Assembly (NCBI GenBank): GCA_030696345.1
Contig: JAUYSK010000028.1
Coordinates: 62,001-126,000 of the forward strand
Length of the DNA: 64,000 nucleotides
Source of the DNA: Azonexus sp.
GTDB lineage: Bacteria; Pseudomonadota; Gammaproteobacteria; Burkholderiales; Rhodocyclaceae
Direction of reading: 5' to 3'
Part shown: in pieces, positions 4,458 through 63,449 of the stretch
Layout of the letters: each line of letters opens with the position of its first letter
Position numbering within the stretch: the stretch's first letter is position 1
Translations under genes and position numbers: made by a program
Notes under the pieces: generated by a model
Told to the model about the DNA's origin: nothing
Database searches by the model: none
Seen by the model: the letters and a program-made list of their open reading frames with translations, nothing else

Positions 4458-5783
4458 TCAAAATTCGCGACGAATGGCCACAGAGACCACTTCGCGGTGA
4501 TATTCGTTGAGTTCGGTATTGGACTGGTTACGCGTCAGGGACACCTGCGGCGTCAAGGTCCAATCCTTAGCGAAGGCGTAGGTCGCTCCTAGCAGCAATC
4601 CGTATTGATGGTCCGTCCTTTCGGTGAGAAAAGAGGGGTCCACCGCAGCATAGCTACGAAACTCGTAGGAAAGACCACCAAAGAGGGTTGTGCTGGTATT
4701 CAAATTGGCTCGTCCGCCGAAGCGCACACCGGCACCGTCAAAACCGATGAAATCAACGCCGTCCGCCTGCGGTTTCTCCTTGACCAGATAGATACTGCCA
4801 AAACCGACCACGCCATCGCGCCACATGTGAGCGTAGGCCGCACCGCCGACCCAGCGGTCGGCATCACGGATGGTTTGCACCACATAATGTAGATTGTTGT
4901 ACTGCAGGAAGGCGCTGACCTGATTGCGCGCATCCAGATTGTATTGCCACTGGCCGGTTACGCCGGCCGCCGTGCGATAGCGCGCATCATCAATGCTGAC
5001 CGAACCAAACTGCCCCATCAGCGTGAACACGTTCTTGTCGGCAGTGACGACGACGCCGGCATTGGCATCGTAATTGCCCATGTCGAACTGGCTTACATCC
5101 TGATTCCATCGTTGCGCCCCGGAAAATCCGGCGAGCAAGGCAACATCCTTTGAAACAGGTACACGCGCATTGACGCCAGCACCCAACTGTCCATACATGT
5201 CCTTGTTGGCCCGGCTGTCGTTCGAAAGCGTGGCCGGGGTCGAGCTGATTCCGGGAATGATGACCGATGTGCGATTCGGGCCAACATTAACGTTGGTGTC
5301 GTAGCCAAGCACTCCTTCAACGTAGCCATTTACCTTCGGCCTGGACTGGCTCTCCATGCGCCGGGCGGCAGCAATATAACGGTCAAGTGTCAGCGATACG
5401 TCGGCTGGCACGCCTTGCCGTTGAACCGTTTCGAATTCCTGACGAGCTGTTTCAACCTCGCCGAGTGCAAGATAAGCTCGTGCTATTTCGGCACGCGCCC
5501 GAACATGGTTGGGCTCCATGGCAAGTACGCGCTCCAGAGCGAATACGGCACGGGTGTTTTGCCCAACCTCAAGCGCCGCCAAGCCAAGGAGAAAATCATA
5601 GCTGGTGTCGCCGGCCCGTGCGCTTTCCTGCGGTTCGAGCAAGGCATAGGCTGCGCTGCCTTTGCCGGCGTTCAACAAAGCTGCCGCTTCATCCGTCATC
5701 TGATCAGCCCAGGCTGACAACGGCTGGCAACAAATCAGACAGGCCGCAGCCAATCCAAGCATCCGATTACTTTTGTTAAACAT
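4458..5783 (-). CDS. DUF560/Slam-type outer-membrane exporter (TPR plus beta-barrel)
   Basis: A 441-residue protein with a signal peptide (cleavage near AWA-DQ), a TPR-like helical region at about residues 30-145 (FALERVLAMEPNHVRAR, then ARAYLALGEVETARQEFE), and a C-terminal half of amphipathic strands ending RREF, as expected of an outer-membrane barrel. The segment GYVEGVLGYDTNVNVGPN at the junction and the final SNTELNEYHREVVSV match the surface lipoprotein assembly modulator (Slam, type XI secretion) architecture. Such proteins move surface or soluble cargo with TbpB-like barrels across the outer membrane. The ATG is preceded by AAGGGGG. It lies between two FecR genes on the same strand. 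The family call is good; its substrate is inferred. Confidence 0.82.
   Translation of the reverse strand: MFNKSNRMLGLAAACLICCQPLSAWADQMTDEAAALLNAGKGSAAYALLEPQESARAGDTSYDFLLGLAALEVGQNTRAVFALERVLAMEPNHVRARAEIARAYLALGEVETARQEFETVQRQGVPADVSLTLDRYIAAARRMESQSRPKVNGYVEGVLGYDTNVNVGPNRTSVIIPGISSTPATLSNDSRANKDMYGQLGAGVNARVPVSKDVALLAGFSGAQRWNQDVSQFDMGNYDANAGVVVTADKNVFTLMGQFGSVSIDDARYRTAAGVTGQWQYNLDARNQVSAFLQYNNLHYVVQTIRDADRWVGGAAYAHMWRDGVVGFGSIYLVKEKPQADGVDFIGFDGAGVRFGGRANLNTSTTLFGGLSYEFRSYAAVDPSFLTERTDHQYGLLLGATYAFAKDWTLTPQVSLTRNQSNTELNEYHREVVSVAIRREF
4638..4650 (-). repeat. Dispersed 13-mer, GGAC form
   Basis: TGCTGCGGTGGAC on the minus strand, exact, inside the DUF560 gene. Confidence 0.85.
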
Positions 5784-5817
5784 GCATCCCCCTTACACAA
5801 TCAAACAACACTTTAAC

Positions 5818-6567
5818 TCAAGGACTCGTCGGTGGCGAATGCATGGGCGGCATGTTGTACGGCGGCGCCGCATTCGGCATGGGTTGCACCGGCTGAGTCG
5901 GTTGTTGCAGGGGCATTGCCTCGCGATTGACCGGGGTCGCGGGCATCATTCCCTCTGTTTTCAAGCCACCACTCTCCAAGCCTGATCGCAGTTCCGGCTT
6001 CACCCCCGGCGAACGCACCCAGACCGTTTCGGCCGGCGCCACGTCGACACAGCCCACCTCGCTGCATACTTCGACCAAGCCAACATAAGTCGTCACCGTC
6101 AGGCCGGAGCCGTCCATCGATGCCCCGAACTCGGTACCACGAATACCTATCGTCGCCACCGTCGTCCCGATCCGGTATTGCTTGCGATCCTGCTTGCCCA
6201 GCCAGCCGGTAACGGTGCGCAAGGAGCCCTTGATCAGCGACATGATGACGCCGTCGCCGGCGGCAGCTTGAGCACCATTCCCGGAATAACGATAGCTATC
6301 CACCCTGAACTGGGTTCCGGGCTGCAGTGACATGCTCGCGCCGTCACGGAAACGCAACTGAACGCGGCCATCCACGGTATCGATGGTTTCACCGGAGGCC
6401 ACGCTGTCCCCCTTGCGTAACGGACGAACAGCTCCGCTTTCTGCGGTCAACAACGGATTTCCCGAGAAAAAGACCAGCGCCGCTGCCTCGTCGGCGAAAG
6501 CCGGAGCACTCAGTAGGAAACCAAGGAGAATCCCGAGCGACAATCGAAGCGACATTGGCATTCTCAT
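5818..6567 (-). CDS. FecR-domain periplasmic protein
   Basis: About 249 aa, with a signal peptide (LGILLGFLLSAPAFA) and one FecR domain: ASGETIDTVDGRVQLRF, then TVATIGIRGTEFGASMDG. The tail is rich in Pro, Met and Gln (about the last 50 residues) and ends without a barrel. The FecR domain closely parallels that of the protein encoded two genes downstream, so the pair probably arose by duplication. Iron-type FecR proteins are transmembrane anti-sigma regulators; this one has no membrane helix or sigma factor beside it, so ferric-citrate signalling should not be assumed. ATG at 6567 and GTG at 6570 are both possible starts. It begins only about ten bases after the decarboxylase stop. Confidence 0.85.
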   Translation of the reverse strand: MRMPMSLRLSLGILLGFLLSAPAFADEAAALVFFSGNPLLTAESGAVRPLRKGDSVASGETIDTVDGRVQLRFRDGASMSLQPGTQFRVDSYRYSGNGAQAAAGDGVIMSLIKGSLRTVTGWLGKQDRKQYRIGTTVATIGIRGTEFGASMDGSGLTVTTYVGLVEVCSEVGCVDVAPAETVWVRSPGVKPELRSGLESGGLKTEGMMPATPVNREAMPLQQPTQPVQPMPNAAPPYNMPPMHSPPTSP

Positions 6568-6576
6568 CACCCTGGG

Positions 6577-8805: not shown

Positions 8806-8814
8806 GCTGAATCC

Positions 8815-8844: not shown

Positions 8845-8876
8845 ACAGAATAAGACGTTTTGATTACCGAAAAGCG

Positions 8877-9443: not shown

Positions 9444-9450
9444 TTTTTCC

Positions 9451-9463
9451 TGCTGCGGTGGAC
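9451..9463 (+). repeat. Dispersed 13-mer, GGAC form
   Basis: TGCTGCGGTGGAC, exact, in the apbC-dcd gap beside the terminator. Confidence 0.85.
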
Positions 9464-9495
9464 AAAAATAAAGGCGGGATTTTACCCGCCTTTAT
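9463..9495 (-). terminator. Rho-independent terminator of apbC
   Basis: A perfect 11-bp stem, ATAAAGGCGGG (9468-9478) with CCCGCCTTTAT (9485-9495), and a six-base loop. On the minus strand it is followed by a T-rich run (ATTTTTG), so it acts on apbC transcripts. The plus side lacks a T tract. Confidence 0.85.
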
Positions 9496-9514: not shown

Positions 9515-10606
9515 TTAAGTGTTCTGCACCACGATGTTCGGGAACTTCGAGGTCATGTCCTTGGCCTTCTCGGCAATCTTGACGGCGACACGGCGGGCGA
9601 TGCTGCGGTAAATCTCTGCCGTGCGTGAATCCGGGGCGCCGACCACGGTCGGCTTGCCGCCATCGGCCATCTGGCGAATCGCCATTTCAAGCGGCAGGCT
9701 ACCGAGGAATTCGACATCGTAATCCTTGCCCATCCGCTCACCGCCACCCTCCCCAAAGATATGCTCTTCGTGGCCGCACTTCGAGCAGATGTGAATGCTC
9801 ATATTTTCGACAATGCCTAGAATCGGGATGTTAACCTTCTCGAACATTTTCAGGCCCTTGCGCGCGTCGATCAGCGCGATATCCTGCGGCGTCGTGACAA
9901 TCACCGCCCCGGTCACCGGCACCTTCTGGGCCAGCGACAACTGGATGTCGCCAGTACCCGGCGGCATGTCGACGATCAGGTAATCAAGCTCATGCCAGTT
10001 GGTCTGGCCAAGCATTTGATCAAGCGCCTGCGCCACCATCGGACCACGCCAGACCATCGGCGTCTCGACATCGACCATGAAGCCGATCGACATCGCCTGC
10101 AGGCCATAGGCCTTTAGTGGCTCCATGCTGCTGCCGTCCTTCGACTCCGGCTGCTGACCACCCAGGCCGAGCATTTGCGGCTGTGATGGGCCATAGATAT
10201 CAGCGTCGAGGATGCCGACAGAAGCACCTTCCTGAACCAATGCCAGCGCCAGATTGACCGCTGTCGTACTCTTGCCGACACCGCCCTTGCCGGAGGCAAT
10301 GGCGATGATGTTTTTGACGCCAGGCAACAGCTTGACGCCCATCTGCACCGAGTGGGCAACGACTTTGGTAAAAACATTGGCCGAAACATTGCCAACGCCG
10401 GGCAGGGTGCGCACGGCAGCAATCACCTGTTTGCGGATGGCGTCGATCTGGGTCTTGGCGGGGTAGCCAAGCTCAAGGTCGAAAGCGACGTCATCGCCAT
10501 CAATCTTGATATTCTTGACCGCCTTGCCGGCAACGAAATCCTTGCCAGTATTGGGGTCGACCGCAGCACTGAGGGCGGTCTTGATCTGCTGCTCTGAAAG
10601 ACTCAT
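9515..10606 (-). CDS. apbC: Iron-sulfur cluster carrier protein ApbC/Mrp
   Basis: P-loop ATPase of the Mrp/NBP35 family that carries Fe-S clusters to apo-proteins in the cytoplasm. 363 aa. Residues about 1-85 are a MIP18/DUF59 domain. The deviant Walker A, GKGGVGKST, is at 106-114; DADIYGPSQP is at about 134-143; VDMPPGTGD is at about 212-220; and the C-x2-C cluster ligand pair is C274/C277 in ICSKCG. The ATG has a GGAG site. It stands alone, with its own terminator downstream and a response regulator upstream on the same strand. Confidence 0.96.
   Translation of the reverse strand: MSLSEQQIKTALSAAVDPNTGKDFVAGKAVKNIKIDGDDVAFDLELGYPAKTQIDAIRKQVIAAVRTLPGVGNVSANVFTKVVAHSVQMGVKLLPGVKNIIAIASGKGGVGKSTTAVNLALALVQEGASVGILDADIYGPSQPQMLGLGGQQPESKDGSSMEPLKAYGLQAMSIGFMVDVETPMVWRGPMVAQALDQMLGQTNWHELDYLIVDMPPGTGDIQLSLAQKVPVTGAVIVTTPQDIALIDARKGLKMFEKVNIPILGIVENMSIHICSKCGHEEHIFGEGGGERMGKDYDVEFLGSLPLEMAIRQMADGGKPTVVGAPDSRTAEIYRSIARRVAVKIAEKAKDMTSKFPNIVVQNT
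10556..10568 (-). repeat. Dispersed 13-mer, CGAC form
   Basis: TGCTGCGGTCGAC on the minus strand, inside the apbC 5' end. Confidence 0.7.
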
Positions 10607-20839: not shown

Positions 20840-22341
20840 CGGTGGTACCTCGCCGCCGCCACCTGGCTGGCGGTTTCGGTCAGACGCAACCAAGGTTCGG
20901 TAAAGAAGCCGATGGCCAGTATGGCGGCGAGCGCGATGCCGCAGACCAGGTATTCCATCGGCAGCGTCCGGTCAACATCCTGACCGCCCTTCCCTTGTTT
21001 GTGCGGTGACATGAAGGCCCGCTGGAAGGCCCAGAGCAGGAAGCCGGCGGCCGCGACGTTGCCGAGCGCCGCCGCTACCGTCGACAGCGCGCCGAAAGTA
21101 GCGATCGATGCCTCCAAAACCAGATGCGCCGCATCGAAGCCCGGCGTTCCCGGCATGCCGACGATGGCCAGACCGAAAACGAGGAAGGCGATGGCAAGGA
21201 AGGGAATCCGCTCGAAAAGGCCGGAGAGTTCGTTTAGTTCAGTCGTTCCGGTGCGCCGGAAGACGAAACCGACAATGAACCACATGCCGGTCGCTGCCAG
21301 TCCAAAATTGGCGGCCAGCAACACGGCGCCCTGAATGCCGGATTCGTGCAGGCTGAAGACGCCGATGACCAGCAAGCTGGTGTGACTGACCACGGCAAAG
21401 GCCAGCAGGCGGCGCAGGTTGGTCTGCTGGAAAGCCAGCGCCGCCGTGAAGAAGACGCCAGCCATCGCGAAGCCGACGATATAGGGCTGCCAGTAGGCCA
21501 CAGCCGTCGGGGTCAGTGGCAGTACGAAACGGAACATGCCGTAGATGCCGACCTTGACGCCGACCATCAGCGCCGGCGCCACGGCGATCAGGCCGTGCTG
21601 GGCCATGTTGGGCAGCCAGCCATGCAGCGGGAAAAGCGGGGTACGCACCGCCAGGCCGTAGAACAACAGGTAGAAAGCGGCCGTCTGGAACTTGCCCTGT
21701 GATGGCGTCGCGGCGAGCTCGAACAGGTCGAAACTCCAGTGCCCGCCGGTTGCTTCGGCATGCCCCCAGCCGAGCACCAGGCAGCCGGCGGCGAAGAGCA
21801 GCCAGCCAAATGACTGGTACTGGATGAAGCGCGACAAGGCATGAATCTCGGCCCGCGACGAAGCCCAGCGCCGCAGCAGATAAACCACCGCCCACAATTC
21901 CAGCGCCGAATAGGCAGCGAACCAGGCCACATTGACCGTCGCCAGCATGCCGATCAGCCCGGCCTCGGCGACCAGCAGCACAGCGAAAAGGCGCCCCGGC
22001 GAAATCATGCCGCGGCTCATGCCATACAAGGTCATCAGCAAGGTGAGCAGCGCCGCAACCAGGATCAGCAACAAACTGAGGCCGTCGACCGCAACGTGGT
22101 AGGCGATCAGGTCGAAGCGTTCGGCGAGTTGCAGCGCTGGCAGCGTCGGATTGATCCGGCTGGTGGCGACGATCGCCAGCAGCAGTTCGACCAGCGCCAC
22201 GACCTTGCCGATGATTACTGCGGTGGACCGCTCGCCAAAAGCAAAAACCAGCGCCGCGCCAAGCAGCGGCAGCAGCTGCAGGATGAGCAGCAAGGGCAGA
22301 TTTGATTGTTGCTGCCAGAGGATTTCGGAAAAGCCGCCCAT
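20836..22341 (-). CDS. Antiporter-like (ND4 family) subunit of the Dab operon, divergent
   Basis: 501 aa, many membrane helices, same fold family as its neighbours but more diverged. The TM5 glutamate is kept (YSALELWAVVYLLRRW). At the position where paralogues have a buried TM7 lysine it reads GLAVRTPLFPLHGWLP, so arginine replaces lysine, whereas the later lysine in MVGVKVGIYGMFRF is present. It is joined to dabB by a one-base TGATG overlap and to the next gene by ATGA, which indicates translational coupling and stoichiometric assembly. It carries a near-copy of the dispersed 13-mer at 22216-22228. Confidence 0.85.
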   Translation of the reverse strand: MGGFSEILWQQQSNLPLLLILQLLPLLGAALVFAFGERSTAVIIGKVVALVELLLAIVATSRINPTLPALQLAERFDLIAYHVAVDGLSLLLILVAALLTLLMTLYGMSRGMISPGRLFAVLLVAEAGLIGMLATVNVAWFAAYSALELWAVVYLLRRWASSRAEIHALSRFIQYQSFGWLLFAAGCLVLGWGHAEATGGHWSFDLFELAATPSQGKFQTAAFYLLFYGLAVRTPLFPLHGWLPNMAQHGLIAVAPALMVGVKVGIYGMFRFVLPLTPTAVAYWQPYIVGFAMAGVFFTAALAFQQTNLRRLLAFAVVSHTSLLVIGVFSLHESGIQGAVLLAANFGLAATGMWFIVGFVFRRTGTTELNELSGLFERIPFLAIAFLVFGLAIVGMPGTPGFDAAHLVLEASIATFGALSTVAAALGNVAAAGFLLWAFQRAFMSPHKQGKGGQDVDRTLPMEYLVCGIALAAILAIGFFTEPWLRLTETASQVAAARYHR

Positions 22342-23867: not shown

Positions 23868-26800
23868 CGCGCCGCTCCCAGCAACAGGGCCGGCGCCAGC
23901 GGTTCATGTTCGCCGGCAAACCAGTCGCTCGAACGCGCCACCTGCGGCAGCACGGCCTTGCCGGACCACGGCAGCCAGCCCCGGCGCGGGCAATAAAATT
24001 CGATTGCTGCGGTGGACGGGCTTTTTGCGGCCAAAACGATCCAGGCGTTGTTGATCAGTTGTTGCAAAGGTGGCTGCCGCTTGAGGATGGCAGTCAGGAC
24101 TTCCGGCGTCTGTTCGACGACAACCAGCAAGCGCATCGGCTCATGGATTTCGACCATCTGCCAGGGCAGGCCGGTGCGCAGGTCGGAATCGGCACCTTCC
24201 ATGACACCGAACAGGCCGGTGATGTTGTGGGTGATTTTTGAACCACATCCGAAACGCTCGTTATCGACCGTCGAAAAATAGTATTCGAGGGCAATACCGG
24301 CCCCGACCGGGCCGGCGGCAAGCAGGATGCCTTCGGCGATACCGCCATCGTCATCGCTGAGCGGATCGTAGGAAATCAGGAACACACGCCGGTCGAGGAA
24401 AAGCCCCCGGCTCATCTCGCGCCGCCCGATGAAGGCAGCAGCATTGGTCGCATGGCCGAGTTCCGGTCGCGCCTGCGAGAAGTCACTGGCACGCCCGATC
24501 ACATGCTGTCGGCCCTGCCACGGCGACGGCCGTTCGGGCGCCGAAGCCAGCCGCCGGCAGCGCTCCGCGGCATGCGCCCGGCAGGCTTCGCCGAGCTGGC
24601 TGACCAGGGTATCGAGCGCCGCCTGAAACGGCGCTGGCACACACGGGAGGTCGTACCACTCGATGCCGTCGTCGCAGGTGTTGTGCTCGGCGGCAACAAA
24701 CCAGGTCGTTTCGGGAATATGGATACCGCGCTCGCTCAGCCCCTGGCGCACTGCTGGCCGGTTGGCCATGGCCGCGAAGACCCGAGCATTCGGCCCGCCG
24801 TGCCGGCCGGAACAGGCGCCGCAATCATAGGCAGAGAGATGCGGGTTGTTAAGGCTGCCGGAACCGTGGCCGAACATCAGGACCAGCGGCGCGAAATTCA
24901 CGGTCAGACCGATCATGCGCAGGAAGGCTTCGATGCGGTCGACCTGCTCGGCATCGGCAAAACCGGCTTGCGGCTGCTCTGGCGTAGCCGGGCTGGCCAG
25001 TTCAGCGGTCAGCCGGAGTTCAGTCGCCACGCGGCCATCCAGTTGCTGTCGCCAGCGCTGCCTGGTTTCGCCAAACCAGCCTGGGGCCGCCGTCGCCGCA
25101 ACCAGAGAGGCGAGCGCCGGAGCGCCAGCCAGTGCGGTCAGCAAGGTACCGCCGAGCGGACTGCGCCGGGTTGATTGGTAGAGTCGTTCGCGCCAGCGCA
25201 GGCGCTTTTCCCGCCACGCCGCATGCCCGGCAAAAGCCGCTTCACTGCCGGCTTCCGGCACCTCACGAACGAGGTGCTTCGGTTTTACGACCACCGGGCA
25301 AAGCGCCGTCTTCTCCGCATCGTCCAGGCCCTGCCAATACATCTCGATGCCAAAAAAACCGACCGCGCCATAGGTGACGACTGCAGGCGCAATTTCTTCC
25401 AGATGCCGGCGCGTACCTTCTTCTCGATCATCCATGCACATGACGACCTGGGCCGATGGCGCAGCCACCGTCGCCTGCCGTGGATGGTTGGTGGCAAGCG
25501 CGACAAACAATTGCTCGCGATAACGGCGTTCGTAAGCGAGCAACCAGATTTGCCCACGCTGCAGCGCGGTCAGACTACCGGCACAAGCAAGCAAGGCCTC
25601 GGCATCCGGCGGGGTCAGGGTTGCCAGATCCGCTGGCGTCAGCTCGAGCTGCCGGCTCAGGCAGAGCAGTTGCCAGGCCCGATCGAGCGCGTCGCGCTCG
25701 GTCTGGCGGGAGGCTATGGCGACAGCCAGCGTCGTCCAGGCCTGCTCGCTGGCGATATTCTCGGCATCAAGCAGTGTTGCCGCCTGAGCTTGCAGATCTT
25801 CCGCCAATGACTGACGCCGCGCCGCATCGCGAACAAAGAACTCGGCCGGACTGGCCGCGTAATAGGCGCGCAATTCATCGAAACTCATTGGCGCGCCGGT
25901 CAGCCGACACATCAGGTCTTCGCACAACATGCGTTCGAGCAGGACGCGGACGGCCAGGTAATCGAGCATGGCGACCGGCGTGCCATCGCCACGCGCCGGA
26001 TTGCGGTCGCGCCAAAGGAACATCCCCGACCAGCCCGGCAACTCCAGGCTCAAGCGCTCAAGATAGCCGTACCAGAGGCTTTCATCCGGAATCAGCCGCG
26101 ATAGCTCTTCAACCAGCACATCGAGCGGGCTGTCGACCAGATGAACGATCTCGTCGCGCACATTGGGCAGTTCGTCGAGTTCCCATTGCATGTCGAGGCC
26201 GGCACAGGCCCGCCAGGCGGCAAAAAAACCCAGCTCCAGCCGGGGGTTGCGCCAGGCGGCAATGCCGAGATCGAGGTGGGCTGCAAGGTGGCGCTGCAAA
26301 ACGCTGCGTACCCGCTCCAGCACGTCCTCACCGGTCAGATATTCGAGCAGGCTGCGCAGCGTCCATTCACCACCGACTCGCTGGCAAAGTGCTTCCCAAC
26401 GCGCCCCGGCGAGCCGCCGCCAATCATTTTTTTCAGCCACCTCAGGCAATGCTGCGGTCAACGCCCTGCACAGGGCAAAAACCGGATCGCTATCAACCCC
26501 CCGCTCCCGCGCCAGCCAGTCGAAACGGCTGGCCCCCGGCACCTGACGGTTTTCGAGCAGGCTGGCGAGCAGGACGTCGGATCGCGTCAGGGTGCAGACG
26601 ACGAGCTGATCGAGATCAGCCAAGCCGGCATCGTCCAGCGCCGCTACCAAGTCTTCGCGCCGGATGCGGCCGGCGGCATGGCATTCGTGAAAACGTGAGT
26701 CCGGCCAGTAAACCGCCGCCCCGGTCAGCCCGTGCGCCGCCGCCAGCGCCTCGGGGAATGGCAGGTGCTGAAAACCGTGCAGCGTGTTGTGATGGATAAA

Positions 26801-31504: not shown

Positions 31505-31511
31505 GAAGCAC

Positions 31512-31544
31512 TGCTGCGGTCAACGCCGGAAAAAGGCAAAAACC
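31512..31544 (+). repeat. Dispersed 13-mer, extended form
   Basis: TGCTGCGGTCAAC at 31512-31524, then GCC, GGAAAAA, GGC and AAAAACC. It matches the copy at 52528-52560 (other strand) at 32 of 33 positions. It lies between the chemoreceptor and dnaE stops. Confidence 0.9.
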
Positions 31545-31570
31545 GAGGGGCCATCAGGCCCCTCGTTCAT
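31536..31570. terminator. Bidirectional terminator between chemoreceptor and dnaE
   Basis: A perfect 9-bp stem, CGAGGGGCC (31544-31552) with GGCCCCTCG (31557-31565), and loop ATCA. On the minus strand it is followed by GTTTTT, strong for dnaE; on the plus strand TTCATTT follows, weaker for the chemoreceptor. Confidence 0.85.
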
Positions 31571-31575: not shown

Positions 31576-34500
31576 CTAGCCGTTATAGACGATCTCGACA
31601 TTTTCCGGCTGCAGCCAGGCGTTTAGCGCTTCGAGCAGCGCATCATCGAGTTTGACCCGCACCGCCTCGCCGAGCACGATTTCGCACTCGGCCGTGTCAT
31701 TCCGATAACGAATCCGCACGGCTGCCGGCCCGGGCGCAAACGGCGTCAGCAGGCTCTTCAGTTTCCGGGCGTCGGAATTGCCGTTCATTTTCAGTAACAG
31801 ATAGCGGGCAAAGCGGGCGCGGGCTTCGCCGATGGTCATCAGCTTGTCGGCGGTGACGCTGTTGCTGCCGGAAAACTCGTCAAACCTGACTTTGCCTTCG
31901 ATGATCAGCACTTCGTCGGTGACAATTTTGGCCCGCTCAGCCTCAAACAATTCGTTGAAGACCGTCACTTCTATCATCCCCGTGCCGTCGTCGAGTTGCA
32001 CGAACAGCATCTTGCCGCGCCGGGTCATCTGGGTGCGCACGCCAACCACGACGCCGGCCAGCGTCGTCAGCTCCTTTGATGGTTCGAGCCGGTTGAGCGG
32101 CCGGCGGACGAAGCGCGACAGCTCTTTCTTGCAAGTATTGTAGGGGTGGCCGGAGAAGAAGAAGCCGAGTGCCGTCTTCTCCTGCATCAACTGTTCCTTC
32201 TCGGCCCAGCGCTTGACCGTCAGGTACTGCGGCGCATGTTCCTCGGCCACGTTGCCGATGTCGAAGAGGCTGGACTGCATGGCATTGCGCTCGGCCTGGT
32301 CGGCGAACTCCATCGCTACACCCACCGAGGCGAGCAGCTTGTGGCGGTCGGCATCGATGCTGTCAAAGCCCCCGGCCTTGATCAGGGCTTCGGTCGTGCG
32401 GCGATTGACCATGCGCTTGTCACAGCGCTTGCAGAAATCGAACAAGTCCTTGAACGGCCCATCCGTCTCGCGGGCTTTGAGAATGACATTGACCGCCTGC
32501 TCGCCGGTACCCTTCACTGCCCCCAGACCATAACGGATAGTGCTGCGGTCAACCGGCTCAAAACGGTAATTTGAGGAATTGACGTCCGGCCCGAGCACCT
32601 TCACCTTGTTGGCGATGGTGTCTTCGTAAAAAATCTTGATGGTGTCGGTGTTGTCCATGTCCGAAGACATGGTCGCCGCCATGAAGGCGGCGCAGTGGTG
32701 CGCCTTGAGCCAGGCGGTGTGATAGGTGACGACGGCGTAGGCGGCGGTGTGCGACTTGTTGAAGCCGTATTCCGCGAACTTGGTCATCAGGTCGAACAGC
32801 TGTTCGGCGAGCGCCGGGTCGTAGCCCTTTTCCTTGGCACCGGCGGCAATCGTCTCGCGGTGCTTGGCCATTTCCTCAGGCTTCTTTTTGCCCATCGCCC
32901 GGCGCAGCATGTCGGCGCCACCTAGCGTGTAGCCGCCGATGATCTGCGAGATCTGCATGACCTGCTCTTGATACACGATGACGCCATAGGTCGGCGACAG
33001 ACAGGCGGTCAGGTCGGGGTGGAAATAGTCGATCTTCTGCTGGCCCTTCTTGCGCAGGATGAAGTCGTCGACCATCCCGGAACCGAGCGGGCCGGGACGA
33101 TAGAGCGCGAGCACAGCGATGATGTCTTCGAAACGGTCGGGTGCCAGCTTCTTGAGCAGCTTCTTCATGCCCTCCGATTCCACCTGGAAGATCGCCGTCG
33201 TATTGGCGTCTTTCAGGATCTGGTAGGCGGCCGGATCGGTGAAGCCGAGGCTCATCAGACCGAGCTTCTCACCGGTCATCCGGCGGATGTACTCGACAGC
33301 CAGCTCGATAATGGTCAGGTTGCGCAGACCCAAAAAGTCGAACTTAACCAGGCCGACCTTCTCGACGTCGTCCTTGTCGAACTGCGACACCGTGGACGCA
33401 TCGCTGCCGGTCGCCTGGTAGATCGGGCAGAACTCGGTGATCTTGCCGGGCGCGATCAGCACGCCGCCAGCGTGCATGCCGACATTTCGCGTCAAATCCT
33501 CGAGTCGACCGGCCAGGTCGAACAGTTCGCGAATTGTTTCACCATCGCCGTCGCCCTGCATCATTTCCTTGAGCTGCGGCTCCTGCTCCAGCGCCTCGGC
33601 CAGCGACACCGGCTTGTTCTGGACGATGGGAATCAGCTTGGAAATTCGGTCGCACATTGAATAAGGCAGGCCGAATACGCGGCCGACGTCGCGGATCACC
33701 GCTTTTGAGGACATCGTACCGAAGGTGGCAATCTGGCTGACCGCATCCTCGCCGTAGTGCTGGCGCACGTATTCGATGACGCGCCAGCGGTTGTCCTGGC
33801 AGAAGTCGACGTCGAAGGCGGGCATCGACACCCGTTCGGGGTTCAGGAAGCGCTCGAAGAGCAGCGCATAGGCCAGCGGATCGAGGTCGGTAATCCCCAT
33901 CGAATAAGCGACCAGCGACCCCGCGCCCGAGCCCCGGCCCGGCCCGACCGGCACGCCATTGTTCTTGGCCCAGTTGATGAAGTCGGCCACGATCAGGAAG
34001 TAACCGGGGAAGCCCATCTGGACGATGGTATTGCACTCGAAAACCAGGCGATCGTCGTATTCCGGCCGGCGCTTCAGGCGCTCTTCCGGGTCCGGGTAAA
34101 GTTGCGCCAGACGGATTTCCAGGCCTTTCCGGGCTTCGGCAACGAGAAATTCATCGATGGTCATGCCCGGCGGAATCGGAAAATTGGGCAGGAAGTTCTT
34201 GCCCAGCGTCAGTTCGATATTGCAACGCCGGGCAATTTCCAGCGAGTTTTCCAGCGCTTCCGGCAGGTCGGCAAACAGCTCGACCATCTCGGCTTGCGTC
34301 TTGAAATACTGTTCTTCGGTATAAATCTTCGGCCGACGCGTATCGCCCAGCACATAGCCCTCGGCAATACAGACCCGGGCTTCGTGCGCCCGGAAGTCGT
34401 CGCGATTCATGAACTGGATCGGATGCGTTGCGACCAGCGGCAGGCCAAGTTCTCCAGCCAGATCGGCCGTCTGCTGAACAATTGCTTCCTGCTGCTGTTG

Positions 34501-38102: not shown

Positions 38103-39710
38103 ATGCCTTCGCTCTCCCCCGCCCGCCAATCCCTGCTGTTGTTTCTGCTTGCCCTTGCGGTGCTGCTGCCCGGCATCTGGGAAGCAACCGGGCTGACCGG
38201 CAAGGACGAATTTTTCCTCGGCCTGCGCACACCGATGGAGATGATCGAAGGCAATCACTGGCTGGTGCCTTTCCTCGACGGCGCGCCGCGCATCCGCAAG
38301 CCGCCGATGCTCTACTGGGTTGGTCGCGCCAGCTTTGAAAGCTTCGGCATTTCACTGGTCAATGCCCGCGTAATTGGCGTACTTTTTGCGGCCCTGCTGA
38401 TCGTCTCTACAGCCGGCGTTGCCCGCCGCCTCTCCGGCAATGCGCAGACCGGCTGGGTGGCCGGTTGCATTCTGCTCGGCTGCCTGGGCATGGCGACAGA
38501 GGGCCGGCGCTTCATGCTCGATGTGCCGGTAGCAGCCTTGTCGACGGCGGCTTTCTGGGCCTTTCTGACCTGGCTGGATTTACGCCGTATTCGGTGGTTG
38601 ACCGCAGCAACCCTGCTACTTGCCGCCGGCTTCCTGACCAAGGGGCCGATTGTCGCGCTGGTCTTTGGCGGCGGCTTTCTGGCTTTGCTCTTTGGCCGCA
38701 AGCTGACGCTGCGCGAATTGCGCCCGCAGTTGCCGGCCCTGCTTGGCCATGCCCTGCTCTGGGCGACGCTCTCCCTGCCGTGGTTCTTCATCGTCCGCAC
38801 CCTCTACCCGGAAGCGACAAATCTGGTGCTGGCTGACGAACTGGAATCACGCCAGTTCTTCAACCTGTCGCCCGGCATCCTGCTCGGCCTGCTCAACATT
38901 GCGCTGCCCTGGGTTTTCGTCTTTGCCGTCGCCGCCTGGCAGCAACGTCGTGGTTCGGCGCTGACGCGGCTGGCGCTGGTCTGGTTCCTCGCCACCTTCA
39001 TCCCCTTCCTCTTCATCAAGAGTTTCGACCGCTACCTGATCGGTTCGCTGGCGCCCTTCGCCGTCTTCCTCGCAATGGCCCTACCGCAGGTGCGAGTTCG
39101 CTGGCCCTACCGCCTGGGCGCGCTGCTGGCACTGCTGCTCGGCGGCGCGCTAGCCGGCTTTACCGCATGGTTCAATCTGGGCGGCTGGTACTGGCTGATT
39201 CTGCCAAGCATCTATCTGGCCTGGGCCTGGTGGCGAGAGCGGGCGCTCGCTCACACCTTGACGGCACCGGCCATTTTCTGGATGGCGCTGCTCTGGGGCG
39301 TATTTCCGGCACTCGGCGTCAATGCCGTGCCGACTGCCGTCATCGAACTTGGCCGCAGCGAGCCGGTCGCCATGTTCGATGGACCGCAACCAGCCATGCT
39401 GCCAATTCTTTCGGCCCAGACCCACCGGCACTACGGCCAGCTCGACAAGTTCGACCTGGCTGAAATCGCCGCCGGCAAGACCCCGGTTTTCCTCGAAGAC
39501 AAGGACGCTTTTCGCTTCCAGGGCATGTTGACCGCAGCAGGCTACGTCGCCACCGAAAGCGGCAGTTACCAGACGCTGGCCTCGCATGGCTCCGGCCTGC
39601 GTTTTGCCCGGGTTGGCGCCACAGCCGCCGACTGGAAAGCGGCCTTTGCCAGCCGCTCACTCGCACCATTGCAGACCACGGTGCGCTGGTACACGGTGAC
39701 CAAACCATGA
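38103..39710 (+). CDS. GT39-type membrane glycosyltransferase (ArnT-like)
   Basis: 535 aa GT-C enzyme. N-terminal membrane helix, then the first periplasmic loop with the acidic catalytic motif in GLTGKDEFFLGLRTPMEM and RKPPMLYWVG, followed by about ten further helices and a soluble C-terminal region of about 120 residues. This family moves a sugar from an undecaprenyl carrier to an acceptor such as lipid A or protein on the periplasmic side. The sugar is not known; true ArnT would need arnBC genes, which are absent here. Its stop overlaps the next start by four bases (ATGA), and that gene overlaps a third the same way. Two 13-mer copies lie inside. Confidence 0.88.
   Translation: MPSLSPARQSLLLFLLALAVLLPGIWEATGLTGKDEFFLGLRTPMEMIEGNHWLVPFLDGAPRIRKPPMLYWVGRASFESFGISLVNARVIGVLFAALLIVSTAGVARRLSGNAQTGWVAGCILLGCLGMATEGRRFMLDVPVAALSTAAFWAFLTWLDLRRIRWLTAATLLLAAGFLTKGPIVALVFGGGFLALLFGRKLTLRELRPQLPALLGHALLWATLSLPWFFIVRTLYPEATNLVLADELESRQFFNLSPGILLGLLNIALPWVFVFAVAAWQQRRGSALTRLALVWFLATFIPFLFIKSFDRYLIGSLAPFAVFLAMALPQVRVRWPYRLGALLALLLGGALAGFTAWFNLGGWYWLILPSIYLAWAWWRERALAHTLTAPAIFWMALLWGVFPALGVNAVPTAVIELGRSEPVAMFDGPQPAMLPILSAQTHRHYGQLDKFDLAEIAAGKTPVFLEDKDAFRFQGMLTAAGYVATESGSYQTLASHGSGLRFARVGATAADWKAAFASRSLAPLQTTVRWYTVTKP
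38597..38609 (-). repeat. Dispersed 13-mer
   Basis: TGCTGCGGTCAAC on the minus strand, exact, inside the GT39 gene. Confidence 0.85.
39527..39539 (-). repeat. Dispersed 13-mer
   Basis: TGCTGCGGTCAAC on the minus strand, exact, inside the GT39 gene. Confidence 0.85.
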
Positions 39711-41385: not shown

Positions 41386-42166
41386 TCAGCTTGCGGATGC
41401 TGCCGGCCTCGAACGGCTTGTCGCAGATCGCCGAAACCCCGGCCCGTTCGACCGCAGCCAGCCGGCCCATGTTCTGCTCGCTGGTCACCATCAGCACCGG
41501 CACGCTGCTCTGCCAGCTTTGCGTGCGAATGTATTCGGTCAGCTCCCGACCATCCATTTCCGGCATGTTGTAGTCGGTGATCACCAGATCAACCGTGGTG
41601 TCCTGCAGCAAGTCAACCGCCTGCTTGCCATTCACCGCTTCGGTAATACGCTTGATGCCAAGCTCGACCAGTAGCCGACGCAGGTGATTGCGCGAAGCAA
41701 GGCTATCGTCGACGAGCAGGACGCGCAGCCCCTCGATTTCCGAGGCATCGACATCTTCCGGCGGATTCAGGTAATCGGCGGCGGCATACAAGGCGCGCGA
41801 AAGTTGCTGCTCGTTGAAAGGCTTGGTGACAATGCTGCAAGCCCCCGATTGCCGCACCGGTTCGAGCACCTGCGGCCGGGTTTCGCTGGAAATCAGGATG
41901 AACGGCACGGCCTCAAGCCGCTCGTCGGCGCGCATCGCCGCTACCAGCTCGGTGCCCACCATATCCGGCAGATACAGGCTGCTGATGACAACCAGCCCAT
42001 CAGTCTTGCCTTCGCTCATCGCAAAAAGGGCCAAGCTGGCATTTTCCACCACCTTGATCTGCCGCGCCCCCTGATGCTGCAACATGCGACTGACCAGCCC
42101 CGCCTGCATGTTCGAAGGCTCGACGAGCAACACCGAAATATCGGCCAGAGAAGTGGTGAGAGCCAT
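41363..42166 (-). CDS. Double-receiver response regulator (pseudo-receiver plus receiver)
   Basis: 267 aa with two receiver domains and no output domain. Receiver 1 (about 10-135): the expected phosphoacceptor position is Ser63 (VVISSLYLPDM) and the acidic pair is reduced to VEPS, so it should not take phosphate; it keeps the switch Ser in LISSETRP and Lys in VTKPF. Receiver 2 (about 145-267): VDDS, D198 in LVITDYNMPEMDG, the Thr position in MVTSEQ, and CDKPF are intact. A GGAG site precedes the ATG. It likely acts by protein contact, for example with a kinase, chemotaxis or cyclase partner; none is adjacent. Confidence 0.92.
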   Translation of the reverse strand: MALTTSLADISVLLVEPSNMQAGLVSRMLQHQGARQIKVVENASLALFAMSEGKTDGLVVISSLYLPDMVGTELVAAMRADERLEAVPFILISSETRPQVLEPVRQSGACSIVTKPFNEQQLSRALYAAADYLNPPEDVDASEIEGLRVLLVDDSLASRNHLRRLLVELGIKRITEAVNGKQAVDLLQDTTVDLVITDYNMPEMDGRELTEYIRTQSWQSSVPVLMVTSEQNMGRLAAVERAGVSAICDKPFEAGSIRKLISESLTR

Positions 42167-44314: not shown

Positions 44315-44323
44315 GCCATTCTG

Positions 44324-44356
44324 AAAATTGCCTGAAAAAGGCCGTTGACCGCAGCA
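44324..44356 (-). repeat. Dispersed 13-mer, extended form with flipped loop
   Basis: TGCTGCGGTCAAC on the minus strand (44344-44356), continued by GGCC, TTTTTCA, GGC and AATTTT. The inner hairpin segment is the reverse complement of that in the copies at 31512 and 52528. Confidence 0.85.
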
Positions 44357-44389
44357 TTCCGGTGCTGGCCTAGCAATTTGACCTGCAAT

Positions 44390-45956: not shown

Positions 45957-46868
45957 ATGAAAATCTCACTCGACCTGCTGCAAATGCTCGATGCCATCGA
46001 GCACCATGGCAGCTTCACCGCTGCCGCCGAAGCGCTACACCGCGTGCCATCAGCCTTGTCACATGCCATCGCCAAACTGGAAGATGAACTCGACATCCAG
46101 CTCTTCACCCGCGAAGGTCGCAAGGCAACGCTCAACGAAGCAGGGCGCGCCCTGCTCGATGACGGACGTCACCTGCTCCGCGCCGCCGACGAACTGGAAC
46201 GCCGCGTGCTGCGCATCGCCAAGGGCTGGGAAACCGAGCTGCGCATCGCCATCGACACCATCATCCCGGTCGAGCGGCTCTATCCATTACTTCAACGATT
46301 CTTTGCCGTCGGCTGCGGCACGCAGATCCGCATCAATCAGGAAGTTCTCGGTGGCACCTGGGACGCCATCGCCACCGGCCGGGCTGATCTCGTCATCGGC
46401 GCCCCGGGCGATCCGCCATCGCGCAGTGGCATCGCCACCCGCCGCCTGTGCGACCACGAGAGCTTCGTTTTCGCGATTGCACCGAGCCATCCGCTGGCCA
46501 GTTGGGAAGGAACGATCCCCGGCAGCGAATTGCTGCTCCATCGCGCCATCGTCATTGCCGACACCTCGCAGGAGTTGATCGCCCGCACCATCGGCGTTCT
46601 CGAAGGGCAGGAAGTGCTGCGTGTTCCCGATATCCGCGCCAAGGCCAGCGCTCAGGTCGCCGGACTCGGCATCGGCCATCTGCCATGCTGGATCGCCGAT
46701 CCGGAAATTGCGGCTGGCCGTTTGGTTGCCATGAAACTCGCCGACCCGCGCGCCGCCATGCCGCTCCACTTGGCCTGGCGCACCCGGCAAATCGGCAAGG
46801 CGCTGGAATGGTTTCTGGCCGAACTGACGAAAAACGATGAAATTGAGGCGTTGACCGCAGGACTTTGA
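45957..46868 (+). CDS. LysR family transcriptional regulator
   Basis: 303 aa. N-terminal winged HTH at residues 1-60 (LDAIEHHGSFTAAAEALHRV, then ALSHAIAKLEDELDIQLFTR). The C-terminal two-lobe effector domain is periplasmic-binding-protein-like from about 90 (ELRIAIDTIIPVERLYPLLQ). It probably regulates the divergent pirin gene and itself. The 45853-45956 gap has dyads usable as LysR sites, such as TATCGATA (45881-45888 region) and AAGGCCT; I cannot fix the exact box. The gene's last codons carry a one-mismatch 13-mer copy (46850-46862). Confidence 0.93.
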   Translation: MKISLDLLQMLDAIEHHGSFTAAAEALHRVPSALSHAIAKLEDELDIQLFTREGRKATLNEAGRALLDDGRHLLRAADELERRVLRIAKGWETELRIAIDTIIPVERLYPLLQRFFAVGCGTQIRINQEVLGGTWDAIATGRADLVIGAPGDPPSRSGIATRRLCDHESFVFAIAPSHPLASWEGTIPGSELLLHRAIVIADTSQELIARTIGVLEGQEVLRVPDIRAKASAQVAGLGIGHLPCWIADPEIAAGRLVAMKLADPRAAMPLHLAWRTRQIGKALEWFLAELTKNDEIEALTAGL

Positions 46869-52506: not shown

Positions 52507-52527
52507 ATCTCGGCCGGCCACGACTTT

Positions 52528-52560
52528 GGTTTTTGCCTTTTTCAGGCGTTGACCGCAGCA
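52528..52560 (-). repeat. Dispersed 13-mer, extended form
   Basis: Read on the minus strand: TGCTGCGGTCAAC (52548-52560), then GCC, TGAAAAA, GGC and AAAAACC. 32 of 33 positions match the copy at 31512-31544. It lies between the MFS and parA stops. Confidence 0.9.
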
Positions 52561-52566
52561 ATCAGC

Positions 52567-53193: not shown

Positions 53194-54512
53194 CCCTGCA
53201 TCTCCCGTTTGTCGAGAATTCGCCGCACCAGATTGACGTGTTCGCGCAGCGTGTAAACCAGATCCGTGAAACCGAGCGGCACATGCAGCTGGCTGGCTTC
53301 TTCATCCAGCGTATCGAGGCGGTTGCGGTAATCGGTCAGCTTGGCAGCATCAAAATGATGCTTCAGATCTTCTTCAAGAAATTTCAGTTCACCGTAGCAG
53401 CGGAAAACCTTGGAACGGACTCGCCAAGTATAAATCGCCGGGGCAATCTTCAGCAGCGGGATCAGCAAGGCAATGATCGGCACCAGCAGCACGATCAGGC
53501 GATCAATCAGCACCGCCAGCCAGAATGGCAAATAACGTTGCAGGAAAGGTGAGCCCGACTTGAAGTAGCGCGCCGCCTCCGCCGACAACGGCAGCATCTG
53601 GTCCTTGTAAGCCGGAAATTCGCCGGCATCCTGGAAGAAACCGGATTTGCCATGCACCTCACTGGCGGCCTGCAGCAACAGGGTTTGCAGCGCCGGATGC
53701 AGGTCATCGCGGACGATCAGATTGGCCGTCGGCGCCAGCACCTTAATGTCTTCCGGCGGAAAATCGCGAACCAGATCTGCCACACCGTGCGGCAAGGTCA
53801 GCTTGGTCAGGAAGGGAAAGCGACGCTGGTAAGCCCCGGCCTGAGCAAAGCTCATCACCTTGATGCCGGGCGAGCGCAACAAAACCTGCACCACTGGCGC
53901 CTTTTCAGCCGCGATGATGAAAGCCGCATCAATGCGGCCCTGCTGCAACTCTTCAGCCGCCTTCAGGCCGGACAGTGGTACCAGGTGCCCCCCGGCCGGA
54001 ATCTCGTTGGCAGCCAGCAATTGCTGCGCCAGTTGGCGCACACCGGAGCCTTCCTGGCCGATGGCGATGCGTTTGCCGCGCAGTTCGGTCAGCCGGGTCA
54101 GCGGCTTGTCACCGCGATAGAAAACCCAGACCGGCTCGTAAAACACGCTGCCGAGCGAAAGCAGGCCGCTATCCTCTTCCTCGCCATCGTCAGCAGGCGC
54201 GATAACGCCGCCCTGAACGAAGCCGATCTGCGCCTCGTCTTTTTTCAGGCGATCAATATTCTCCAGCGAACCGGCCGATGTCCTGACCTCCAGCGTCACA
54301 CCGTCGCGGGCCAGAATCGTCGCGTAGCGCTGGGCGAATTGGTAATAAGCACCACTTTCGCCACCGGTGGTGATGACGATCCGGCTTGGCGGCGCCGGCT
54401 GGACGAACTGGTAGGCAACCACGAAGCCGATGCCGACGATCAGGATAATCCACCAGGCAGTGGCGAACAGGTCGCGCAGCGAGAGCAGCCCGGCTTTGAA
54501 CTTGGCCATCAT
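53190..54512 (-). CDS. Membrane-anchored TAXI-family (TRAP-type) binding protein
   Basis: 440 aa. One N-terminal helix (LFATAWWIILIVGIGFVVAY); a periplasmic TAXI domain at about residues 40-320 (VITTGGESGAYYQFAQRYAT, GGVIAPADDG, KRIAIGQEGSGVRQLAQQLL); then a second hydrophobic segment (LIVLLVPIIALLIPLLKIAP) and a cytoplasmic helical tail of about 90 residues. Free TAXI proteins deliver ligands to TRAP permeases; this one is tethered on both sides and no TRAP permease gene is nearby, so it may act as a sensor or scaffold. It is translationally coupled to parA and to the quinone reductase. Confidence 0.88.
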   Translation of the reverse strand: MMAKFKAGLLSLRDLFATAWWIILIVGIGFVVAYQFVQPAPPSRIVITTGGESGAYYQFAQRYATILARDGVTLEVRTSAGSLENIDRLKKDEAQIGFVQGGVIAPADDGEEEDSGLLSLGSVFYEPVWVFYRGDKPLTRLTELRGKRIAIGQEGSGVRQLAQQLLAANEIPAGGHLVPLSGLKAAEELQQGRIDAAFIIAAEKAPVVQVLLRSPGIKVMSFAQAGAYQRRFPFLTKLTLPHGVADLVRDFPPEDIKVLAPTANLIVRDDLHPALQTLLLQAASEVHGKSGFFQDAGEFPAYKDQMLPLSAEAARYFKSGSPFLQRYLPFWLAVLIDRLIVLLVPIIALLIPLLKIAPAIYTWRVRSKVFRCYGELKFLEEDLKHHFDAAKLTDYRNRLDTLDEEASQLHVPLGFTDLVYTLREHVNLVRRILDKREMQG

Positions 54513-58353: not shown

Positions 58354-61919
<3,566 letters not shown>

Positions 61920-61929
61920 GGAAATCGCC

Positions 61930-62442
61930 ATGCGTCTCCTGTTCGCCCTGATCCTTGCCGCCGCCCTCACCGGCTGCGGCTTCCAACTGCGCGGGACGCT
62001 CAGCGGCAACCTGCCGTACAAGAGCATGTACATCGCGCTGCCGGAAACAGCCGATGTCCGGATCTGGCTGGAGCGCTACATCAACGCTGCCGGCAGTACC
62101 GAGATCGTCGACGACGCCAAACTCGCCGATGGCACTTTCCAGCAACTTTCTGACAGTCGCCTGAAGACAATTCTCAGCGTCAATGCCCAGGGCCGCGTGC
62201 GCGAATATCGCCTGCAGCTCAATTACCGCTTCCAGGTGGTCAATGCCAAGGGCCAGGTCGTGATGCCGGCCAACGAAATCAACCTGAGTCGCGACATTAC
62301 TTTCGATGACTCCAACATCCTGGCCAAGGATCTGGAAGAAGGCCTGCTCTGGCGCGACATGAATAACGATCTGGTCAACCAGATCATGCGTCGTCTTTCC
62401 ATCGTCAAGCCGAAGAACCCCGACCTCGAAGAAGACGAATAA
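61930..62442 (+). CDS. lptE: LPS-assembly lipoprotein LptE
   Basis: 170 aa from MRLLFALILAAALTGCGFQL. A lipoprotein signal with lipobox LTGC places the lipidated Cys at residue 16, and GFQLRG directly after it is the LptE hallmark. The outer-membrane lipoprotein plugs the LptD barrel and helps place LPS at the cell surface. The later part shows YRLQLNYRFQVVNAKGQVVM and LLWRDMNNDLVNQIMRRLS. It is sandwiched between leuS and holA (TAATG overlap), the order common in proteobacteria. Confidence 0.96.
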   Translation: MRLLFALILAAALTGCGFQLRGTLSGNLPYKSMYIALPETADVRIWLERYINAAGSTEIVDDAKLADGTFQQLSDSRLKTILSVNAQGRVREYRLQLNYRFQVVNAKGQVVMPANEINLSRDITFDDSNILAKDLEEGLLWRDMNNDLVNQIMRRLSIVKPKNPDLEEDE

Positions 62443-63449
62443 TGCTGCTCAAGGGCGAGCAACTGGCGGCGCACCTCGAACGGGAACTGCGCCCGCTCTA
62501 CGTTCTTTACGGCGACGACCCGTTGCTGGTCATCGAAGCGGCCGACGCCATCCGTGCCAAATCGCGCCAGCAGGGCTATAGCGAACGCGAAGTTCTCACC
62601 GTGCTGCCGCAATTCGACTGGGGATCGTTGCTTGCCGCTGGCGGCAACATGTCCCTGTTCGGCGACAAGAAGCTGATCGACCTGCGCATTCCGACCGGCA
62701 AGGTGGGCAAGGAGGGCAGCGCCGCGCTTCAGCAGTGGTGCCAGAATCTCTCGCTCGATAACCTGCTGCTGATCACCTTGCCCGAACTCGACTGGCGCGA
62801 GGAAAAGGCCGTCTGGTTCACCGCGCTGGTCAATGCCGGCGTCGCCATCAAGCTGATCGCACCGCCGCTTGCCGAATTGCCCGGCTGGATCGCTGGTCGT
62901 CTGCGTCGGCAACAGCAAAGCGCTGACCTGGAAAGCCTGAAGTTCATCGCTGAGCGCGTCGAAGGCAATCTGCTGGCGGCCCATCAGGAAATCCAGAAAC
63001 TCGGCCTGCTCTATCCGACCGGTCAGCTAAGCATGGCCCAGGTGCGCGATGCCGTGCTCAACGTTGCCCGTTACGACATCGAAGGCCTGCGCGAAGCCCT
63101 GCTCTCCGGCGACGTCGCCCGCCTGACCCGGACACTGGACGGACTGATGCAGGAAGGTGAGGCGCCACCGCTGGTTCTGTGGGCGATGAGTGAGGAAATC
63201 CGCGCCCTGACGATCATTCGGGCCGGCATGGACGCCGGCAAACCGGTCGACATGCTGCTCAAGGATGCCAAAGTCTGGGGGCCGCGGGCCAATCCGGTGA
63301 AAAAAGCCCTGCAGAGGGTGTCCACCGCAGCACTCGAAAGCGCGCTGCAACACGCCGGAAAAATCGACCGACTGGCCAAGGGCATCGGTCACGGCAATAT
63401 CTGGGAAGAGTTCTTGCGGCTCGGCCTGCGCCTTACCGCAGCGAAATAA
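62442..63449 (+). CDS. holA: DNA polymerase III delta subunit
   Basis: 335 aa clamp-loader subunit that opens the beta clamp. Seen: RELRPLYVLYGDDPLLVIEA near the N-terminus, MSLFGDKKLIDLRIPTGK (the clamp-contact region), ESLKFIAERVEGNLLAAHQE, and the C-terminal collar segment LWAMSEEIRALTIIRAG with KIDRLAKGIGHGNIWEEFLR. It starts on the last base of the lptE stop. The stop lies directly against the stop of the convergent Cys-rich gene. It carries one GGAC-type 13-mer. Confidence 0.96.
   Translation: MLLKGEQLAAHLERELRPLYVLYGDDPLLVIEAADAIRAKSRQQGYSEREVLTVLPQFDWGSLLAAGGNMSLFGDKKLIDLRIPTGKVGKEGSAALQQWCQNLSLDNLLLITLPELDWREEKAVWFTALVNAGVAIKLIAPPLAELPGWIAGRLRRQQQSADLESLKFIAERVEGNLLAAHQEIQKLGLLYPTGQLSMAQVRDAVLNVARYDIEGLREALLSGDVARLTRTLDGLMQEGEAPPLVLWAMSEEIRALTIIRAGMDAGKPVDMLLKDAKVWGPRANPVKKALQRVSTAALESALQHAGKIDRLAKGIGHGNIWEEFLRLGLRLTAAK
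63320..63332 (-). repeat. Dispersed 13-mer, GGAC form
   Basis: TGCTGCGGTGGAC on the minus strand, exact, inside holA; the flanking bases GCCCTGCAGAGGG resemble the hairpin of the dabA copy. Confidence 0.85.

Follow-up and report, generated by a model that had tools for sequence, protein, structure and literature searches.

A composite iterated element in Dechloromonas/Azonexus genomes, best read as a third, convergent DNA-uptake-sequence system

The 64,000-nucleotide stretch of Azonexus sp. DNA analysed here (hereafter the window; contig C16:62001-126000 of a 3.96-Mb genome in 28 contigs) contains dnaE and, scattered within and between its genes, copies of an iterated element whose 13-bp core occurs as TGCTGCGGTCAAC, TGCTGCGGTGGAC and TGCTGCGGTCGAC. 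A dnaE search places the host in Dechloromonas/Azonexus, a group in the Azonexaceae, Rhodocyclales, with Dechloromonas hortensis and D. denitrificans among its nearest relatives by DnaE (93% in the best segment). The seven exact copies of TGCTGCGGTCAAC and four of TGCTGCGGTGGAC, whose coordinates and strands are exactly those given in a preliminary description of this DNA, compare with means of 0.00 and 0.01, respectively, over 100 dinucleotide-preserving shuffles, none of which held seven of the former; the CGAC variant that had been placed at 10556 on the minus strand is likewise there, as an exact TGCTGCGGTCGAC. The 13-mer of that description is real but incomplete, as the element runs about 20 bases further 3' in the form of two A/T tracts. 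The window gave no match to any Rfam family at gathering thresholds. The copies are listed below with their full extents; fractions after 'tracts' are A/T counts in the first and second tract, and retention of the core is counted over aligned relatives that are rich or poor in copies.

4617..4652, minus strand: putative uptake-sequence copy, exact TGCTGCGGTGGAC at 4638-4650; tracts 4/5 and 3/4; inside gene 4458-5699 (minus)
9449..9484, plus strand: putative uptake-sequence copy, exact TGCTGCGGTGGAC at 9451-9463; tracts 5/5 and 4/4; intergenic
10535..10570, minus strand: putative uptake-sequence copy, exact TGCTGCGGTCGAC at 10556-10568; tracts 4/5 and 3/4
24003..24038, plus strand: putative uptake-sequence copy, exact TGCTGCGGTGGAC at 24005-24017; antisense in a gene; core in 4/4 copy-rich and 0/4 copy-poor relatives
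26448..26483, plus strand: putative uptake-sequence copy, exact TGCTGCGGTCAAC at 26450-26462; core in 6/6 copy-rich and 0/5 copy-poor relatives
31510..31545, plus strand: putative uptake-sequence copy, exact TGCTGCGGTCAAC at 31512-31524; between convergent genes
32539..32574, plus strand: putative uptake-sequence copy, exact TGCTGCGGTCAAC at 32541-32553; antisense within dnaE
38576..38611, minus strand: putative uptake-sequence copy, exact TGCTGCGGTCAAC at 38597-38609; core in 3/3 copy-rich and 0/2 copy-poor relatives
39506..39541, minus strand: putative uptake-sequence copy, exact TGCTGCGGTCAAC at 39527-39539; core in 0/3 copy-rich relatives compared, present in S06.Bin117
44323..44358, minus strand: putative uptake-sequence copy, exact TGCTGCGGTCAAC at 44344-44356; between convergent genes
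52527..52562, minus strand: putative uptake-sequence copy, exact TGCTGCGGTCAAC at 52548-52560; between convergent genes
63299..63334, minus strand: putative uptake-sequence copy, exact TGCTGCGGTGGAC at 63320-63332
493..528, minus strand: one-mismatch core at 514-526; second A/T tract present, first weak
6437..6472, plus strand: one-mismatch core at 6439-6451; both tracts
22214..22249, plus strand: one-mismatch core at 22216-22228; second tract
46829..46864, minus strand: one-mismatch core at 46850-46862; both tracts
59165..59200, plus strand: one-mismatch core at 59167-59179; both tracts
60498..60533, plus strand: one-mismatch core at 60500-60512; second tract
35216..35251, minus strand: two-mismatch core at 35237-35249; both tracts; core in 6/9 copy-rich and 0/5 copy-poor relatives
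53366..53401, minus strand: two-mismatch core at 53387-53399; both tracts; possible member
41447..41459, minus strand: place named in the preliminary description; two mismatches, no A/T tract, probably no member

All 20 places of the preliminary description lie within two mismatches of the CAAC, GGAC or CGAC form; at one of them, 41447 (minus strand), the second A/T tract is missing. Within the window this tract accompanies 12/12 exact cores, 6/6 one-mismatch cores and 5/14 two-mismatch cores (17277-, 24931+, 34497-, 35237- and 53387-). The copy at 26450 sits near the start of gene 23864-26896 (minus strand, own gene caller), in a region with many indels relative to related genomes.

The suspicion that the 13-mer is a genome-wide iterated signal is borne out by counts far above chance: the genome holds 227 copies of TGCTGCGGTCAAC (102 forward, 125 reverse) and 524 of the degenerate form TGCTGCGGTSRAC (246 forward, 278 reverse), and the reversed-pattern control gave 0 in both cases. 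Anatomy and distribution were read from 860 kb of this genome, window included, in which the copies, 126 of them strict, were aligned. The 13-mer proved to be the core of a composite element of about 34 bp, A-n-TGCTGCGGT(CA/GG/CG)AC followed by an A/T tract at +17..21 and, 10 bp on, by a second at +27..31, with an A two bases 5' of the core, a C at +15 and a G at +24, and with no similarity among the aligned copies past those 34 bp or so. The second tract (at least three of four A/T at +28..31) is present in 122/126 strict copies as against 8/66 controls, and the first (at least three of five) in 94/126 as against 21/66, the controls being 66 copies of TGCTGCGG without the following T. At the dinucleotide that varies within the core, the GA form is rare in this genome (10/213).

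Our own simple gene caller found 769 genes in the 860 kb (88.8% coding). Gaps between genes are favoured, 30 of the 126 strict copies being intergenic against 11.2% of the sequence (2.1-fold, p = 6e-5), while 76% lie within genes, 46 in sense and 50 in antisense orientation. Adjacent copies share a strand in 61/122 cases, and their spacing is slightly more even than random (coefficient of variation 0.84). Low-GC 10-kb windows are poorer in copies (8 in 14 windows versus 117 in 71), which we do not use as proof of depletion in foreign DNA because the core is itself GC-rich. A role in transcription termination was considered and rejected: no pairs closer than 100 bp occur among the 126 strict copies, and hence none of the inverted-pair terminators seen in the known systems.

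The reading frame of the genic copies is strongly biased, as 43 of the 46 sense copies read nnT-GCT-GCG-GTC-AAC or its GG and CG variants, encoding Ala-Ala-Val-Asn, or Ala-Ala-Val-Asp in the GG and CG forms. This bias speaks for a by-product of codon preference, of restriction-modification or of a repair or mutation bias. The A/T fraction at +29 and +30, however, is 0.98 or higher whether copies are intergenic, sense or antisense, and the second tract is equal in all three classes, the first being somewhat weaker inside genes than between them; the similarity of the tracts across classes ties them to the DNA as such rather than to codons. Together with the length and composite nature of the element, the complete lack of reversed-pattern copies and the species-specific dialects described below, this renders a by-product origin very improbable. 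As a separate observation, the element slightly shapes proteins, its genic copies being nearly limited to a few reading frames.

Perfect cores outnumber one-mismatch cores by 120 to 53 in the 860 kb when the second tract is required, and by 124 to 62 when it is not. One-mismatch copies with a second tract never carry their mismatch at C5, G6 or T8, which, together with G7, define an inner core CGGT.

To address the origin of the copies, 34 relatives, taken from 80 loci, were aligned to the window over their dnaE region. Within genes, the alignment across the core is mostly ungapped, also in relatives that lack the core (27/27 rows at 35237, 9/9 at 22216 and 31/34 at 32541), and copies at such sites therefore arose by substitution; gaps across the core are more frequent at 24005, 38597 and 39527. 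A small mobile or palindromic repeat (a miniature inverted-repeat transposable element or a repetitive extragenic palindrome) spread by transposition would account for the strong consensus, and two sites that lie at or close to the ends of genes (26450, 31512) do align with many gaps, which leaves them uninformative on origin. Transposition is nevertheless already contradicted by the ungapped alignments at gene sites, and with similarity ending at about 34 bp and no pairs within 100 bp, we find such a repeat scarcely credible.

Conservation of the sites in relatives follows the abundance of the element: the core is kept in 30/39 copy-rich versus 4/27 copy-poor cases (Fisher 8e-7, the cells not being independent); for random 8-mers from this region, retention was 23% and 20%, respectively. 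This comparison covers nine places (eight with aligned relatives) and 15 relatives (nine rich, six poor), a core being accepted up to 8 bases off. All four retentions in copy-poor relatives are at 32541, within dnaE, where the protein restricts change. On a dnaE tree of 41 rows (L102, which has an internal stop, was left out), the trait needs nine changes, at least seven of them by well-supported branches, versus 13.8 for shuffled labels; gains and losses are not distinguished in this count, and copy density was taken from at most 23 kb per relative, so some assignments may be wrong.

Counts of TGCTGCGGTSRAC in 23 genomes of the genus and its neighbours were high in D. hortensis MA-1 (258), D. 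denitrificans ATCC BAA-841 (255), Azonexus hydrophilus ZS02 (213) and Dechloromonas sp. H13 (187), low in D. hankyongensis (5), Dechloromonas sp. CZR5 (4) and A. hydrophilus DSM 23864 (6), and 0-2 in Azospira, Propionivibrio, Rhodocyclus and Accumulibacter. For the survey of the genus we used a generic pattern, CGGTCRAC-N16-WWW. Among 76 genomes of the genus, 40 were rich, with 429-2410 copies as against 18-67 in the controls, a further 13 were intermediate and 23 lay near control level; among 300 genomes of the order the pattern stayed at or below 71 in all 297 outside the genus, six of which belong to the same family. The element is thus limited to one genus among the genomes searched, and is patchy there. 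In some species (G125, G038, G050) generic copies number 2200-2400, and the sequence upstream of CGGT is only weakly fixed in G125 and G038.

No strand skew, which the preliminary description had named as pointing to other kinds of site, is seen over the 40 rich genomes, with 24,595 forward and 24,551 reverse copies. Chi, KOPS (FtsK-orienting polar sequences) and their kin are iterated short motifs that act as polar signals, and an element as highly iterated and non-palindromic as this one could belong with them. Strand symmetry, seen also in the 61/122 neighbours on the same strand, already contradicts this reading, and many sister species are near control level; a polar chromosome signal is extremely unlikely.

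The core comes in dialects that differ upstream of CGGT: GCTG in the window's own genome, GCCA in G002, CA in G011, CG in G053 and TGA in G030. In the logos from which these were read the A/T triplet is forced by the pattern, only the remainder being free evidence, and most samples comprise 12-23 copies. Motifs listed from 80-kb samples of ten species, in which tandem repeats dominated, included the element in G029 and G030 only; read without forcing, both have the A/T tract at the same offset, and the top motif of G030's own sample is TGACGGTCGAC, with A/T at the same distance. G038 was missed by this listing, yet holds 2299 generic copies. The GG-AC form is common in the window's genome alone (57/213, versus 0-3 per species in 13 others sampled), and its occurrence there beside CA-AC and CG-AC (e.g. 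at 4638, 24005 and 63320 in the window) perhaps reflects a dialect in change.

Both distribution and anatomy bear on the possibility that the element is an intracellular site of a chromosome-structuring or regulatory protein, such as a nucleoid protein or global regulator, kept by selection. A long composite site with A/T tracts, 2.1-fold enriched between genes and slightly evenly spaced, is what such a protein might use. Yet 76% of strict copies lie within genes, in both orientations, species have their own dialects, 23/76 genomes of the genus are near control level, and a 38-kb stretch with a foreign insert has one generic copy where about eight are expected. The excess of perfect over one-mismatch copies is, moreover, anomalous for regulatory-protein sites according to Redfield et al. 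2006 (PMC1626085). We therefore regard a protein site of this kind as unlikely.

The competence genes that the preliminary description had suggested looking for are in the genome: comEC is intact on C3 (L044:16785-19103) and comEA lies on C16 outside the window. The genome also has dprA on C13 and 18 type IV pilin-like genes, of which a cluster on C12 (C12:379.8-387.7 kb) comprises a GspH-domain pilin called FimT, PilW, a further pilin and a pilin that matches Pfam ComP_DUS (E = 3.5e-18). When comEC status was classified by hand in 60 genomes, leaving out eight unresolved ones (four of them rich), 26/44 genomes with intact comEC and 1/8 with split comEC were copy-rich (Fisher p = 0.02 without kinship correction). 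Seven of the eight split genes carry inserts, near residue 237 (four) or residue 255 (three), and one of these seven has a further insert near residue 480; the eighth, in G034, is broken near residue 330 with no large insert. G002 is the sole rich species with a comEC insert, and the 38 kb around that insert are the stretch just mentioned, its expectation of about eight generic copies being taken from the genome mean. As an observation in its own right, mobile DNA has repeatedly landed in comEC within the genus, with inserts of 2-41 kb (L251-L264: G043, G002, G017, G005, G056, G028, G035), one of which starts with a large serine recombinase and another of which carries a TniB gene.

How the element relates to known uptake sequences can be judged trait by trait. 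It has several traits of their functional class, namely copy number, perfect copies exceeding one-mismatch copies, both orientations, non-coding enrichment and, within genes, an origin by substitution. With the uptake signal sequences (USS) of Pasteurellaceae (Hin AAGTGCGGT, Apl ACAAGCGGT) it shares GCGGT in the core, two 3' A/T-rich tracts, hundreds to thousands of copies on both strands, non-coding enrichment, a substitution origin and subclade dialects, and USS decay where competence is lost (PMC1626085, PMC7811141, PMC12616744). A/T segments, dialects, mutational origin and competence losses in Pasteurellaceae were treated by Redfield et al. 2006 (PMC1626085), and in Haemophilus influenzae the GCGG core is reported as crucial, with rigidity and a slight bend predicted for the A/T tracts (PMC7811141). 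Unlike in USS, the core here is longer and otherwise different (TGCTGCGGT-SR-AC), some dialects have ACGGT, the host order differs, and presence varies among many species of one genus. The tracts, seen in this genome and, for the second, also in G029 and G030, have another register: about 9-13 and 19-23 bases after GGT, 10 apart, whereas those of Hin-type USS follow directly after the core, 12 apart. Neither AAGTGCGGT nor ACAAGCGGT is contained in TGCTGCGGTSRAC or its dialects, and GCGGT alone is shared, being absent from the ACGGT dialects. As the defining USS core is lacking, the element falls outside the Pasteurellaceae USS family, and we call it a third, convergent system, one that seems to work in USS fashion; the likeness to the Pasteurellaceae core, which the preliminary description had put down to probable convergence, holds in that both have GCGGT and a pair of A/T tracts, though the register differs.

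With the DNA uptake sequences (DUS) of Neisseriaceae (GCCGTCTGAA and dialects) the element has in common enrichment across the genome, dialects built around a constant inner core (PMC3630211, PMC12616744) and a type IV pilus machinery. Its core is unrelated to theirs, however: the inner core of DUS is CTG, as in GCCGTCTGAA, and DUS lack flanking tracts and often form inverted pairs at terminators, whereas the element has another core, with tracts. From Chi and KOPS it differs in having no strand bias. According to a 2025 paper, the use of such motifs to tell own from other DNA is known from two families only (PMC12616744). Our literature searches, with preprints (bioRxiv) and most subscription journals outside their scope, gave, among the papers listed, no uptake-sequence report for Rhodocyclales and, by title, none on a third family; the preliminary description knew of no described element of this kind in that order.

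The element, about 34 bp long, is very probably an uptake signal sequence of composite build, read by a pilus competence machinery and spread by molecular drive. That it resembles DNA-uptake sequences had already been proposed, and the count above chance, the strand symmetry and the presence of competence genes support this; the step from anatomy to biased uptake is ours to infer. Core and A/T tracts on outside DNA would be recognised by a receptor in the type IV pilus, for which a FimT- or ComP-like minor pilin is the likeliest candidate; the pilus would draw in the fragments that bear this label, and ComEA, ComEC and DprA would lead a strand to recombination. Copies would then build up by molecular drive wherever point mutation makes them, in either orientation, in intergenic DNA and at codons that tolerate them, because labelled alleles would be taken up and recombined more often. 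A change of receptor in a lineage could give a new core dialect, and loss of competence could let its copies decay. It also seems likely to us that this is a third independent system, converged with that of Pasteurellaceae on a GCGG core and two A/T tracts, that it has several dialects in one genus where the label has come and gone repeatedly, and that mobile elements near two comEC codons mark lineages in which the label is decaying.

Several observations weigh against an uptake sequence. The association between comEC and copies is weak (p = 0.02) and uncorrected for kinship; among 44 species with intact comEC, 18 fall short of the copy-rich class, and the rich genomes G008, G018, G020 and G054, whose comEC is in fragments or absent, were left out as ambiguous. 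The rich G018 gave no dprA match and the rich G042 no strong comEA match. No receptor is singled out, minor-pilin loci being common to rich and poor species, and no close inverted pairs occur among the 126 copies, unlike in both known systems. A few genomes outside the genus exceed their very small controls (G202, 20 versus 3; G241, 33 versus 5), which we take for a composition effect, and the generic pattern partly builds in the second tract, so that the genus, order and dialect counts are no independent test of that tract. The literature searches found, among the papers listed, none on competence in Dechloromonas/Azonexus, and we know of no uptake experiment for this genus.

Members of this genus are environmental bacteria by life style. 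A third origin in such bacteria, if true, would mean that the trait is not tied to living on animal mucosa, and the common layout of a core with two A/T tracts suggests that pilus-driven uptake has a physical requirement. The 40 rich, 13 intermediate and 23 poor genomes, with several dialects in one genus, offer many natural contrasts that bear on receptor identity, on dialect switching and on the spread of labels by molecular drive. The label could also be of use in opening these bacteria to genetic work.

As regards the candidate receptors, ComP_DUS pilins were found in 56/60 genomes of the genus and FimT-like matches in at least 74/76. Among the matches listed, the minor-pilin locus seems to have three layouts, as read from match positions, and these occur in rich and poor species alike, for which reason we name no receptor. 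One of the layouts, again among the matches listed, has a gap that would fit pilY1. The FimT-like minor pilin evolves very fast, its best matches within the genus ranging, among those listed, from 61% to about 30% or less, compared with mostly above 80% for DnaE.

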